The notes under the pieces are model-generated. The model did no database searches, had not been told where the DNA came from, and saw nothing but the letters and a program-made list of their open reading frames with translations. Positions 1 through 6,598 of a DNA stretch of 64,000 nucleotides are shown here, one piece after another. Position 1 is the first letter of the stretch, and each line of letters begins with the position of its first letter. The DNA lies in contig NCKB01000001.1 in the NCBI GenBank assembly GCA_002279065.1, forward strand, positions 62,001 through 126,000, read 5' to 3'. The DNA is from Lysobacterales bacterium 15-68-25 (GTDB lineage Bacteria > Pseudomonadota > Gammaproteobacteria > Xanthomonadales > Rhodanobacteraceae). Both the position numbers and the translations under genes were made by a program.

Positions 1-305
1 TCGATCGAGTCGGCGATCACCTCGCGGCTGACCAGCGAGGCGCGCATGCCGGGTGTGCCCATCGCCATGCCGTCGGTGATCGCGATGGTGTTGAACTCGA
101 TCGGCGTGCCGCCCGCGGCGCGCACGCCGGCGGTAGCCGCGTCGGCCAGTTCGCGCAGGTTGAGGTTGCACGGGCTGACGTTCGACCAGGTGTGCACGAT
201 CGCCACCAGCGGCTTGGCGATCGCCGCGTCGTCCAGGCCCGTGGCCCGCATCATCGCGCGTGCCGGTGCGCGATCGGGGCCGGTTTTCATCACATCACTG
301 CGCAT
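1..305 (-). CDS. ilvD: dihydroxy-acid dehydratase, N-terminal part (cut by window edge)
   Basis: Dehydrates dihydroxy acids to 2-keto acids in valine, isoleucine and leucine synthesis; an Fe-S enzyme of the cytoplasm. Only the first ~101 residues are present. They read MRSDVMKTGPDRAPARAM and then AIVHTWSNVSPCNLNLRELA and ITDGMAMGTPGMRASLVSRE, all typical of the IlvD/Edd N-terminus. The ATG at 305 gives this conserved start. It follows leuB on the same strand after a 135-base gap. That gap contains an imperfect G+C hairpin (about 345-377) followed by a short T run, so ilvD may have its own promoter or may receive only part of the leu operon transcript. Confidence 0.93.
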   Translation of the reverse strand, partial: MRSDVMKTGPDRAPARAMMRATGLDDAAIAKPLVAIVHTWSNVSPCNLNLRELADAATAGVRAAGGTPIEFNTIAITDGMAMGTPGMRASLVSREVIADSI

Positions 306-440: not shown

Positions 441-1538
441 TCAACCGCATGCGCGGCCGCCGGCGAAGAAGGCGTGGTGGGTGCTGGCGTGGTCCTCCAC
501 CGCCATCAGCACGGCGTCGCGCACCGCGGCGGTGTTGCCCTGGCCACCGACGTCGCGGGTCCGCGGTCCATGCGCCAGCACGTGCGACACCGCGGCCTCC
601 ACGCACTGGGCCTCTTCCTCCAGGCCCAGCGAGTGGCGCAGCAGCATCGCGGCGGAGAGCATCGCGCCGGTCGGGTTGGCCACGCCCTGGCCGGCGATGT
701 CCGGCGCCGAACCGTGGATCGGCTCGTACAGGCCGCGCTTGCCATCGCCCAGCGAGGCAGACGGCAGCAGGCCGAGCGAACCGGCCAGCGCGGCGGCCTC
801 GTCGGTGAGGATGTCGCCGAACAGGTTCTCGGTGACCACCACGTCGTAGCGACCCGGCTGGGTCAGCAGCAGCATCGCCATCGAGTCGACCAGCTGGTGC
901 TCGACGGTCACGTCGCGGTACTCCGGCGCGATCCGCTGCACGACGTTGCGCCACAGGCGCGAGGTCTCCAGCACGTTGGCCTTGTCGACCGAGGTCAGGT
1001 GGTGGCGGCGCTCGCGCGCCAGCGCGAAGGCGCGGCGCACCACGCGTTCGATCTCGGCCTCGGTGTACTTGCACTCGTCGGTGGCGGCGTCGGCGGTGCG
1101 CGTCTTGGCGCCGAAGTAGGCGCCGCCGGTGAGTTCGCGCACGAACAGCACGTCGACGCCCTTGAGCTTCTCGTTCTTCAGCGGCGACAGGTTGGCCAGC
1201 GCCGGGTGTACCTGCAGCGGGCGCAGGTTGGCGTACACGCCGAGCGCCGCGCGCAGCGCCAGCAGGCCCTGCTCGGGGCGGACCTTGGCGTTCGGGTCGG
1301 ACCACTTCGGCCCGCCCACCGCACCCAGCAGCACCGCGTCGGCTTTCTTGCATGCCTCCAGCGATGCGGCCGGCAGCGGCTCGCCGCTGGCGTCGATGGC
1401 GCATCCGCCGATCAGGTGCTCTTCGAAAGTGAACCGGTGGCCATAGTGCTCGGCCACGGCCTCGAGCACGGCCACCGCGGCGGCGGTGACCTCGGGGCCG
1501 ACGCCGTCGCCGGGCAGGGTGACGATATGCGCCTTCAT
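441..1538 (-). CDS. leuB: 3-isopropylmalate dehydrogenase
   Basis: Oxidises and decarboxylates 3-isopropylmalate to 2-ketoisocaproate with NAD, the third step of leucine synthesis. The 365 residues begin [17 protein letters not shown] and include [35 protein letters not shown] and the NAD/metal signature [18 protein letters not shown] followed by [18 protein letters not shown]. This is full length for the family. The ATG at 1538 overlaps the leuD stop in an ATGA arrangement, which implies translational coupling. The reading frame stays open upstream into leuD, but the family start and the coupling both support 1538. Last gene of the tightly packed leuA-ilvE-leuCDB block. Confidence 0.97.
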
Positions 1539-2122
1539 GCAGCGTGTTCCTCGTGCTGGAGTTCGTAGCGGGTGATGGCCTCGGCGTGCTGCAGCAGGAA
1601 GCCGAGCTGGTCGACGCCTTCGAGCAGGCAGTGGCGGGCGAAGGGTTCGAGCTGGAAGTGGATGCGGCCGCCGTCGGGCAGGCTGATGTGCTGCTCGCGC
1701 ACATCGATGGACAGCTCCACGCCGGGGTGCTCGAGCAGCCAGCGGTGCTCGGCCTCGGACACCACGATGGCGAGCAGGCCGTTCTTCAGCGCGTTGTTGC
1801 GGAAGATGTCCGCGATCTCGCTGCACAGCACCGCCTGGATGCCGTAATCCAGCAGCGCCCAGGGCGCGTGCTCGCGCGAGGAGCCGCAACCGAAGTTGCG
1901 CCCGGCAACCAGGATCGCGCAGCCCGCCGCTTCCGGCCGGTTCAGCGGGAACGCCGGGTTGTCGCTGCCGTCGGCCTGGTAGCGCCAGTCGTTGAAGCAG
2001 CGCTTGCCCAGACCTTCGCGAGTGGTGGTGGTGAGGAAGCGCGCCGGGATGATCCGGTCGGTGTCGATGTTCTCGTCCGCCAGCACGGCGGTGCGCGAGT
2101 GGATGCGGGTGACGGGCTTCAT
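1535..2122 (-). CDS. leuD: 3-isopropylmalate dehydratase small subunit
   Basis: Small (swivel-domain) subunit of isopropylmalate isomerase, which works with LeuC to convert 2- to 3-isopropylmalate. The 195-residue protein contains [16 protein letters not shown] near residue 16, and the family block [17 protein letters not shown], followed by [21 protein letters not shown]. Length is normal for the gammaproteobacterial LeuD type. The ATG at 2122 lies inside the leuC stop codon (ATGA overlap), and its own stop overlaps the leuB start in the same way, so leuC, leuD and leuB are probably coupled in translation. Confidence 0.97.
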
Positions 2123-3534
2123 GCGGCCTGCTCCTGGCGGACGTACTCGCGAGGGTCGGCGATGCGCCCGGCCACGGCCGAGGCGGCCGCGGTGGCCGGG
2201 CTGGCCAGCACGGTGCGCGCGCCCTTGCCCTGACGACCCTCGAAGTTGCGGTTGGAGGTGGACACGACCAGTTGGCCCGGCTGCGCCAGGTCGCCGTTCA
2301 TGGCAATGCACATCGAGCAGCCCGGCACGCGCCACTCGGCGCCGGCGTCGAGGAACACCTCGTGCAGACCTTCGCGTTCTGCGTCGCGGCGCACCGCTTC
2401 GGAACCCGGCACCACCAGCATGCGCACGCCGTCGGCGACGCGGCGGCCGCGCAGCACCTCGGCCGCTTCGCGCAGGTCGGACAGGCGCGAGTTGGTACAG
2501 CTGCCGACGAACACCACATCCACCGGCATGCCCTGCATGGCGTGGCCCGGCTGGGCCTGCATGTAGTCCAGCGCACGCTGCTCGACCGCATTGCGCGGTG
2601 CCGGCACCGGCGTGTCCATGGCGATCGCCATGCCCGGGTGGGTGCCGTAGGTGACGGTCGGACGGATCTGGCTGGCGTCGATGCGCACTTCGCGGTCGTA
2701 ACGCGCGCCTGCGTCGCTGGGCAGTTGGCGCCAGGCGGCGACGGCGGCGTCCCAGGCCGCACCCTGCGGCGCGTGCGGGCGGCCCTTCAGCCAAGCGAAG
2801 GTGGTCTCGTCCGGGGCGATCAGGCCGGCGCGCGCGCCCGCCTCGATCGACATGTTGCAGACGGTCATGCGCTCTTCCATCGAGAGCGCCTCGATCGCCG
2901 GACCGCGGTACTCGATGACGTGGCCGGTGCCGCCGTCCACGCCGATCTTGCCGATGATGTGCAGGATCAGGTCCTTCGCGCCCACGCCCCTGGGCAGGGC
3001 GCCGTCGACGTGGATCGCCAGTGTCTTCGGCTTGCGCTGCAGCAGGCACTGGGTGGCCATCACGTGGCCGACCTCGGTGGTGCCGATGCCGAACGCCAGC
3101 GCGCCGAACGCGCCGTGGGTGGAGGTGTGGCTGTCGCCGCAGACGATGGTCATGCCCGGCTGGGTGGCGCCCAGTTCCGGGCCGATCACGTGCACGATGC
3201 CGCGGTCGCTGCTGTCCCAGCCGTGCAGTTCGATGCCGAACTCGGCGCAGTTCGCTTCCAGCTTGGCGACCTGCGCTTTTGCTTCGGCGTTGGCGTAGGG
3301 ACGCTCGCCGTCGGGGCCGGGTGGCAGGGTCGGAGTCGAGTGGTCCAGTGTGGCCAGGGCGCGGTCCGGACGGCGCAGCGGCAGACCGCGGCTGCGCAGT
3401 TCGTCGAACGCCTGCGGCGAGGTCACCTCGTGCACCAGATGCAGGTCGATGTACAGGATCGCCGGGGTGTCGGCCGATTCCGGCGCCACCAGGTGGGCAT
3501 CCCACAGTTTCTCGAAGAGGGTGCGCGCGCTCAT
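2119..3534 (-). CDS. leuC: 3-isopropylmalate dehydratase large subunit
   Basis: Catalytic, [4Fe-4S]-containing subunit of isopropylmalate isomerase (aconitase superfamily). The 471 residues include DHSTPTLP, the substrate-site block [20 protein letters not shown], and the three cluster ligands expected of the family: C346 in GSCTNSR and C406/C409 in PGCSMC. The start at 3534 overlaps the ilvE stop (ATGA). Part of leuA-ilvE-leuCDB, with LeuD encoded immediately downstream. No anomalies seen. Confidence 0.97.
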
Positions 3535-4472
3535 GCGGCGATCTCCTCGTCGGCGGTCGTGGGCACCGGCGTCAGCCAGCCCCAGCGGTCCTCGGTGCTG
3601 CCGTCGAACAGGCCGAAGAAGCGCTGCTGCAGCGCGCGGGTCACCGGGCCCGGCTCGCCGGCGCCGACCGGCTTGCGGTCGACCGAGCGCACCGGGGTGA
3701 TCTCGGCGGCGGTGCCGGTCATGAACACCTCGTCGGCCGAGTACAGCGCCTCGCGCGGCAGGTCGCGCTCTTCCACCACCAGGCCCAGGTCTTCGGCCAG
3801 GGTCATCACCGAGTCGCGGGTGATGCCGGCGAGGATGCCGGCGCTGGACGGCGGGGTGAGCAGCTTGCCCTTCTTGACCAGGAACAGGTTCTCGCCGGCG
3901 CCCTCGCTGAGCAGGCCGTTGTGGCCCAGCGCGATGCCCTCGTCGTAGCCGCCGCGGCGTGCCTCCGCGGCGATCAGCTGGCTGGACAGGTAATTGCCGC
4001 CGGCCTTGGCCCAGCTCGGCAGGGTGTTCGGTGCCGGACGATGCCAGGAAGACACGCAGACGTTCGCGCCCTTCTCGCGGGCATCGCCCAGGTAGGCGCC
4101 CCATTCCATCGCCATGATCGCGACGTCCACCGGCGAGCCGTCGTTCGGCAGCACGCCGAGGCCGCCGGCGCCGCGGAACACGATCGGCCGCACGTAGGCC
4201 GCGCGCATGCGGTTGGCGCGGATCACTTCCAGGCAGGCGGCGTTGATCTCCTCCTCGCTGAAGCCGATGGCGATGTCGTACACGCGCGCCGACTCGAACA
4301 GGCGGCGGGTGTGGTCGGCGAGGCGGAAATAGGCCGGGCCCTGCGGCGTGGCGTAGACGCGCTCGCCCTCGAACACCGACGAGCCGTAGTGCAGCGCGTG
4401 GGTGGTGACGTGGACGTTGGCATCGGCCCAGGGCTTGATGCGGCCGTTGTGCCAGAGGAAGGGCGTGCTCAT
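3531..4472 (-). CDS. ilvE: branched-chain amino acid aminotransferase
   Basis: PLP enzyme of fold type IV that performs the last transamination to leucine, isoleucine and valine. The 313 residues show [16 protein letters not shown] near residue 26, the PLP lysine K156 in [25 protein letters not shown] and the C-terminal [14 protein letters not shown]. Length and motifs match the IlvE class I family. It sits 42 bases after leuA and overlaps leuC by ATGA. Placing ilvE between leuA and leuC puts the shared final step under the same attenuator as leucine synthesis. Confidence 0.96.
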
Positions 4473-4514: not shown

Positions 4515-6095
<1,581 letters not shown>

Positions 6096-6127: not shown

Positions 6128-6160
6128 AAAAAAAACCCCGCTCCGGTGTCGGTGCGGGGT
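6128..6160 (-). terminator. transcription attenuator of the leuA operon
   Basis: On the minus strand a near-perfect hairpin (7 bp ACCCCGC/GCGGGGT, one A-A mismatch, 3 bp CCG/CGG, ACAC loop) is followed at once by eight T residues, the form of an intrinsic terminator. It lies between the leader-peptide stop (6206) and leuA (6095). Its 5' arm contains CCCGCACC (plus positions 6151-6158), the exact complement of GGTGCGGG in the last codons of the leader peptide (6210-6217). The alternative 8-bp pairing would destroy the terminator. This is classical amino-acid attenuation; the mechanism is inferred from sequence only. Confidence 0.9.
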
Positions 6161-6205
6161 CTTGGGGGGTCTCAGGTGTGTTTCCTTTTGCCTGGGACGC
6201 AGCCG

Positions 6206-6346
6206 CTAGCCCGCACCTCCGCTGGTAATGAGGAGTACGAGTACAAGGCCAATAAGAAGGAGGGCGCCGCCGGCCAGCAGCGGGTCGCCTACCGTCGTGG
6301 GACGACGGCTCAGGGCGAGGCTGTGGTGGCTGTTGCGCTGCGACAT
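6206..6346 (-). CDS. leuL: leu/ilv leader peptide (attenuation)
   Basis: A 46-codon ORF whose control region, codons 28-41, reads ALLLIGLVLVLLIT: 7 Leu, 2 Ile, 2 Val and 1 Thr in 14 codons. These leucines are all CTC or CTT and the valines GTA, whereas the structural genes strongly prefer CTG and GTG/GTC; such slow codons are expected where ribosome stalling is sensed. The stop TAG follows directly after GGTGCGGG, the antiterminator strand. A ribosome that reaches the stop would mask it and let the terminator form. A ribosome stalled at the Leu/Val/Ile codons would leave it free. The ATG sits only 7 bases after a -10 element, so the mRNA is probably leaderless. The symbol is by analogy. Confidence 0.88.
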   Translation of the reverse strand: MSQRNSHHSLALSRRPTTVGDPLLAGGALLLIGLVLVLLITSGGAG

Positions 6347-6353
6347 GCGACCG

Positions 6354-6383
6354 ACCTTAGGGCAGCGGAAAAGGCCGCGTCAA
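6354..6383 (-). promoter_or_regulatory. promoter of the leu leader/operon
   Basis: On the minus strand TTGACG (6383-6378), an 18-base spacer and TAAGGT (6359-6354) form a sigma-70-like promoter. The leader ATG at 6346 begins 7 bases after the -10 box, about where transcription should start. The thr leader has the same -35 sequence, spacer and -10-to-ATG distance. Inferred from sequence. Confidence 0.7.
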
Positions 6384-6598
6384 CAGTTTCATGTGAATCC
6401 AAGCGAAAAAAGTCGTTCGGACGTCCAGATGTCCAATCGAAAACGGGCTCAAAGCCTTGCTGCACTTGGGCTGGCGCGCCTTTCGCAGGATTCCGCGTAC
6501 GCTTCGTCGCGCCCCCTTGCCGACGCCCGCCCGGCGCATCGAAGCGATCGGCGACGCGCCATGACGCATCGCCGCACCTCCGTTCGCGCGGGTACGGA

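Follow-up and report, generated by a model that had tools for sequence, protein, structure and literature searches.

A ribosome-mediated transcription attenuator, probably leaderless, predicted upstream of the leuA gene cluster in Rhodanobacteraceae

The soil bacterium Lysobacterales bacterium 15-68-25 carries, between thrC and leuA, a short region on the minus strand for which an earlier note had proposed a complete branched-chain amino acid attenuator. The locus raises the question of whether the genes behind this region are controlled by a ribosome translating a short leader. Our analysis of the surrounding stretch of 64,000 nt (hereafter the window) and of related loci leads us to conclude, with high confidence, that the region is a ribosome-mediated transcription attenuator with its own promoter. 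It lies directly upstream of leuA, and the genes leuA-ilvE-leuCDB-ilvD-ilvC-ilvB-ilvN-ilvA that follow this one attenuator serve the whole Leu/Val/Ile pathway. The cluster runs out of the window on the same strand, with ilvD extending leftwards from position 305, followed by ilvC, ilvB, ilvN (a small ORF, assigned as regulatory subunit by sequence) and ilvA. The proposed coupling of ilvE and ‘probably ilvD’ to leucine synthesis was right but too modest, as ilvD, ilvC, ilvB, ilvN and ilvA all follow. A single transcript is predicted to span all ten genes; the leuB-ilvD gap of 136 nt could hold another promoter. Among 79 family loci, ilvD lies 3’ of leuB in 64 and is missing from that place in 15.

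The structural constituents of the attenuator class are found here (Table 1): a leader ORF with clustered codons of the pathway, a terminator before the first gene, an antiterminator, a 1:2 helix and downstream genes of the same pathway. The leader consists of an ATG, 45 further codons and a TAG, and its Leu/Val/Ile run, ALLLIGLVLVLLIT, occupies codons 28–41. The antiterminator is formed by 8 exact base pairs between GGTGCGGG (6217–6210) and CCCGCACC (6158–6151), the terminator stem by pairing of 6160–6154 with 6141–6135, followed by T8 at 6135–6128. The 46-codon leader with its branched-chain run, the 8-bp antiterminator and the terminator with eight T residues thus lie where the first reading had placed them. 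That reading had missed three parts, namely the leaderless promoter, the linker hairpin and the 1:2 hairpin, which is formed by the control codons themselves and completes the classical four-strand layout. Energies amount to −20.3 kcal/mol for the terminator stem and −13.2 kcal/mol for the 1:2 hairpin fold.

Table 1. Coordinates of the attenuator, its putative upstream operator and the genes behind it, in positions of the window.
Feature	Position	Strand	Basis or remark
Tandem 8-bp repeats GGACATCT and GGACGTCC, MetJ-box-like operator candidate	6419..6434	(-)	75/81 loci
-35 element TTGACG	6378..6383	(-)	All 81 loci have TTGAC[AGT] here
-10 element TAAGGT, 7 nt before ATG	6354..6359	(-)	TANNNT, spacer 17-18, in 81/81 loci
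Leader peptide ORF, MSQRNSHHSLALSRRPTTVGDPLLAGGALLLIGLVLVLLITSGGAG and stop	6206..6346	(-)	Sequence; kept in 81/81 loci; predicted leaderless
Control codons CTC CTT CTT ATT GGC CTT GTA CTC GTA CTC CTC ATT	6227..6262	(-)	Codon bias vs CTG, GTG/GTC, ATC over all loci
Strand 1 of 1:2 hairpin, within control codons	6232..6250	(-)	Pairing kept in 86-95% of cells, 49 sequences
Strand 2 GGAGGTGCGGGC, last leader codons	6209..6220	(-)	Partner is strand 1 or (6217-6210) strand 3
Linker hairpin CAGG...CCTG, between leader stop and terminator	6173..6194	(-)	5/5 pairs with two-sided changes
Strand 3 CCCGCACC, antiterminator partner in 5’ terminator arm	6151..6158	(-)	98.2% of cells paired with strand 2, 49 sequences
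Intrinsic terminator ACCCCGC ... GCGGGGT, T8	6128..6160	(-)	Pairing in 100% of cells; two-sided changes in 3 pairs
leuA, 2-isopropylmalate synthase, first structural gene	4515..6095	(-)	NCBIfam
ilvE, branched-chain aminotransferase	3531..4472	(-)	NCBIfam
leuC, leuD, leuB	441..3540	(-)	ORFs; leuC by NCBIfam; order conserved in family
5’ part of ilvD	1..305	(-)	Cluster goes on outside the window: ilvC, ilvB, ilvN, ilvA

To compare loci, LeuA was sought in 148 Rhodanobacteraceae genomes, from which 80 loci were taken; together with the window’s own, this gave 81 loci from 25 genera. The order leuA-(ilvE)-leuC-leuD-leuB recurs throughout, a few loci lacking ilvE at this place and one contig ending early. 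In all 81 loci a leader ORF with a Leu/Val/Ile run ending in GAG-stop is located 93–195 nt 5’ of leuA, and in nearly all of them a T-run terminator follows the leader. Alignment across the family, suggested in the earlier note as a check of leader codons and helix pair, showed both to be conserved family-wide. A collection of 84,980 species was also searched for the exact DNA pattern of the leader’s end. Among the matches listed were Rhodanobacteraceae records including Dyella, Rhodanobacter, Luteibacter, Frateuria, Tahibacter and Dokdonella, some MAGs whose names stop at a higher rank, and a contig bearing the label Eremiobacteraeota, presumed to be misbinned.

The promoter between thrC and the leader emerged from the same comparison: TTGAC[AGT], 17–18 nt, TANNNT and then 6–8 nt to the leader ATG were found in 81 of 81 loci. 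A sigma-70-type promoter with such spacing places the transcription start on the ATG or within 1–2 bases of it. Judged by this spacing, the leader mRNA is probably leaderless. The inner -10 bases vary between loci, so that the weak AGG present in some of them does not represent a conserved Shine-Dalgarno site. A consensus promoter scan at the locus returned no sigma-70 match, because the -10 element TAAGGT is far from TATAAT. A comparably strict promoter pattern was met in 7 of 20 sister-family loci. The first seven leader residues, M[SP]QRNSH (6346–6326, minus strand), are conserved family-wide in amino acids and mostly in bases, and perhaps serve initiation on a leaderless mRNA. With its conserved and probably leaderless start, the element would suit studies of how attenuation works when no Shine-Dalgarno site is present.

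Structure statistics were derived from 49 non-redundant sequences. Taken as one set, the 1:2 hairpin, the linker hairpin and the terminator had 90.8% of cells paired and 8 pairs changed on both sides, and neither value was reached in any of 500 shuffles. All 8 two-sided pairs fall in the linker hairpin (every one of its five pairs, in the family version) and in the terminator (the remaining three). The 1:2 hairpin, with no two-sided changes in the family, and the antiterminator give no covariation signal there because they are too conserved. In 73 of 78 family loci and 14 of 18 sister-family loci, the antiterminator complement was better than in dinucleotide shuffles (p ≤ 0.05). Covariation of the two competing helices, as had been expected for an attenuator, was thus borne out for the terminator; the antiterminator, too conserved within the family, differs in sister families yet still matches (GGTAGCGGG:CCCGCTACC, GGCGCGGGGTTC:GAACCCCGCGCC, CGGGGGCG:CGCCCCCG). 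No support was found for an additional helix, GAGGGC:GCCCTC, that would have enclosed the element as a whole.

A point against the attenuator reading is that, upon folding without a ribosome, the fully made terminator wins even with strand 1 masked, so that the outcome depends on co-transcriptional kinetics. Based on the generally known size of a ribosome footprint, a ribosome at 6208–6206 covers 6217–6210, whereas one stalled at codons 29–38 leaves these nucleotides uncovered. This geometry fits the idea, already put forward from the window’s sequence, that the parts are spaced so as to let a ribosome at the stop codon hide the antiterminator strand.

The choice of synonymous codons sets the control run apart from its surroundings. 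Over the 81 loci, CTG accounts for 0.8% of Leu codons in the run, compared with 53% in the N-terminal part of the leader and 59% in leuA; the corresponding values are 89.7%, 4% and 7.7% for GTA among Val codons, and 95.7%, 24% and 12.6% for ATT among Ile codons. The bias is thus confined to the run, the N-terminal part of the same leader being free of it. In the window’s flanking genes, the shares are 1.5% for CTT among Leu codons, 4.9% for GTA among Val codons and 3.1% for ATT among Ile codons, in line with the earlier statement that these genes avoid the control codons; for CTC, at 19% of Leu codons, the statement does not hold, and it is rather CTG that is avoided in the run. The 1:2 hairpin, with strand 1 inside the run, may account for part of the codon constraint; the bias is also seen where the run is unpaired, in the CTT/CTC codons that open it and in the ATT that closes it. 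That attenuators use codons for selectively discharged isoacceptors is a theoretical expectation (PMC1183508), and the preference for CTC/CTT, GTA and ATT over the common codons offers a natural test of this selective charging theory outside enteric bacteria.

Beyond the family, a covariance model of the element was searched without gene context. At E ≤ 0.01, it gave matches in 119 of 151 genomes of the order. This figure is to be read as an upper limit, since GC-rich terminators score with the model as well: beyond the order, scores reached 43.7 bits, and the four matches examined there had no BLAST match to cluster genes nearby; such scores therefore prove nothing without gene context. Sister-family matches were accepted on gene context and leader. 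All 20 examined lie directly before ilvD, ilvC, ilvB, ilvE or leuA; every one of them has a Leu/Val/Ile leader of its own, and most have a matching antiterminator of their own as well. By these comparisons the pathway appears to keep this element, or a convergently arisen version of it, while the first gene changes. In one genome (G276), two copies facing apart (L129, 1001–1131 on the minus and 1501–1621 on the plus strand), one of them before leuA-leuC, and a third copy in the same region before ilvE-ilvA (L130) were observed. A search for a second attenuator in the window’s own genome yielded other matches of at most 23 bits, the best five of which had neither a BLAST match to cluster genes nearby nor a Leu/Val/Ile-rich leader.

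From the parts and their conservation, the covariation of terminator and linker, the codon bias and the constant link to branched-chain genes, we infer stalling, termination and a response to amino acid supply, which would proceed as follows. RNA polymerase would start at or next to the ATG, and a ribosome would load on the leaderless mRNA. When charged tRNA-Leu (probably the CUC/CUU isoacceptor), tRNA-Val or tRNA-Ile is short, the ribosome would stall at 6262–6227 and cover strand 1; the freed strand 2 (GGUGCGGG) could then pair with strand 3, the linker hairpin closing the gap. This helix would keep the terminator from forming, and the cluster from leuA to ilvA would be transcribed. With the tRNAs charged, the ribosome would reach the UAG and cover strand 2, or leave and allow strands 1 and 2 to pair; strands 3 and 4 would then form the terminator, and transcription would stop at about 6128.

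Other readings of the same features deserve consideration. The leader might chiefly encode a small membrane protein with one TM helix, the terminator merely ending its gene, as could be suspected from a C-terminal half that resembles a TM helix and from the conserved N-terminus M[SP]QRNSH. Such a protein would not call for the selection seen on synonymous codons in the run, nor for last codons that double as strand 2 of two alternative helices; moreover, the sister-family peptides vary save for the Leu/Val/Ile run, the gene always stands before branched-chain genes, and the leader peptide matches no Pfam or NCBIfam family above cut-off. We therefore regard this explanation as very improbable. 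The location of the hairpin between thrC and leuA might alternatively mark it as a mere unregulated terminator of the upstream thr genes. This we find scarcely credible, since the stretch from thrC to the leader contains a conserved promoter of its own, the element occurs where no thr gene was found within 2.5 kb upstream as well as before ilvC or ilvD in other families, and a conserved competing helix would have no point. Attenuation, by comparison, agrees with the conservation of control codons and helix pair, and with an element that stays with branched-chain genes when the gene downstream of it changes.

A third rival reading concerns the amino acids that the attenuator would sense. A joint response to Leu, Val and Ile had been proposed, and a run containing all three is indeed conserved; equal sensing of Ile was overstated, however, as the last ATT of the run lies 12 nt from strand 2. 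In practice the attenuator might respond to Leu (and Val) without Ile, a serious if somewhat doubtful possibility. Leu codons predominate in the 81 runs (509 Leu, 165 Val and 116 Ile), and the sole universal Ile codon, with which the run ends, is in an unfavourable position for a sensor, because a ribosome stalled there would partly cover strand 2; Leu and Val should for this reason be the stronger signals. Only some members of the family have a second Ile codon, at codon 31 in 17 of 61 aligned leaders. On the other hand, all 61 aligned leaders keep the ATT that closes the run, and the cluster includes the Ile genes ilvA, ilvD, ilvC and ilvB.

A further feature missed by the first reading lies upstream of the promoter. 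A MetJ-box-like 16-mer (at least 12 of 16 positions) was found 5’ of the -35 element in 75 of 81 loci, mostly 43–65 nt away, compared with 1.8% of control windows, and the repeats at the present locus resemble tandem met boxes (AGACGTCT-like). We consider them a candidate MetJ operator and a lead. The genome harbours a MetJ-family gene with a met-box-like site upstream of itself; upstream of metF of the same genome no such site was found, and a survey listed no MetJ for its four Xanthomonadales (PMC4239095). The MetJ-family protein (L270, C18:217296-217550 of the own genome) is part of a 212-aa open frame that runs past the MetJ domain with an extension of Lys/Ala-rich codons, which looks unusual for MetJ. 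In the same neighbourhood, a second leader ORF with a Thr/Ile run (MSIDNAPVSLRPARLPGVARCAGARCVDTLSAATITTTTTITTRSGWVSVRD and stop, 10300–10142, minus strand) precedes hom-thrB-thrC. Its promoter, TTGACG-N18-TAGTGT-N7-ATG, has the same leaderless spacing, so this leader is apparently leaderless as well; L133, L137 and L158 are among 22 further loci with similar Thr/Ile leaders. Behind the ORF, a conserved GC-rich hairpin lacking a T-run comes first and a CCTC..GAGG pair over the hom Shine-Dalgarno site second; possibly, translation attenuation is at work. Taken together, a MetJ-type repressor and a leaderless attenuator might set the branched-chain pathway in two layers, beside a leaderless Thr/Ile leader that hides the hom ribosome binding site rather than ending transcription. 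This is a tentative picture that we consider rather unlikely; if true, one region would read methionine, threonine and branched-chain supply together.

The mechanism is of a known kind, and the element is a new, order-wide member of it: a well-supported regulator of branched-chain synthesis without Rfam match in the family, with a related form in much of the order. The enterobacterial leuABCD and ilvGMEDA attenuators (RF00512 Leu_leader and kin) likewise have a Leu/Val/Ile-rich leader, a terminator before the first gene, and strands 1–4 forming 1:2, 2:3 and 3:4 helices. Here, by contrast, strand 2 shares its sequence with the leader’s final codons and stop, and the element is probably leaderless and stands before a ten-gene cluster for all three amino acids. 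The RF00512 covariance search gave no match in the window, and a relative (L075) scored 24.9 bits against a gathering threshold of 50. A match to Rfam P15, a Pseudomonas sRNA (20 bits, E 0.02–0.04, gathering threshold 70), was dismissed as chance, with one weak match in 94 genomes of the class. Vitreschak et al. (2004) reportedly predicted candidate branched-chain attenuators in proteobacteria, gamma-proteobacteria included, which are said to share mechanism and pathway with the present element. Our literature search found no description of the element for Xanthomonadales, although that study may have predicted relatives. With respect to Leu control codons, CTC/CTT are used here and CTA in the Salmonella leu leader (PMC1183508). 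The ilvBNC attenuator of Corynebacterium glutamicum has CUU and GUA as control codons in a leader ORF that is leaderless, as is predicted here, together with a three-hairpin model and a terminator supported by mutations, but belongs to another phylum and differs in its structures and its three-gene operon (PMC11857589). The trpL leader of Sinorhizobium meliloti, whose RNA starts at the ATG and whose peptide also acts in trans, is a leaderless attenuator leader as predicted here, but for the tryptophan operon (PMC7298713).
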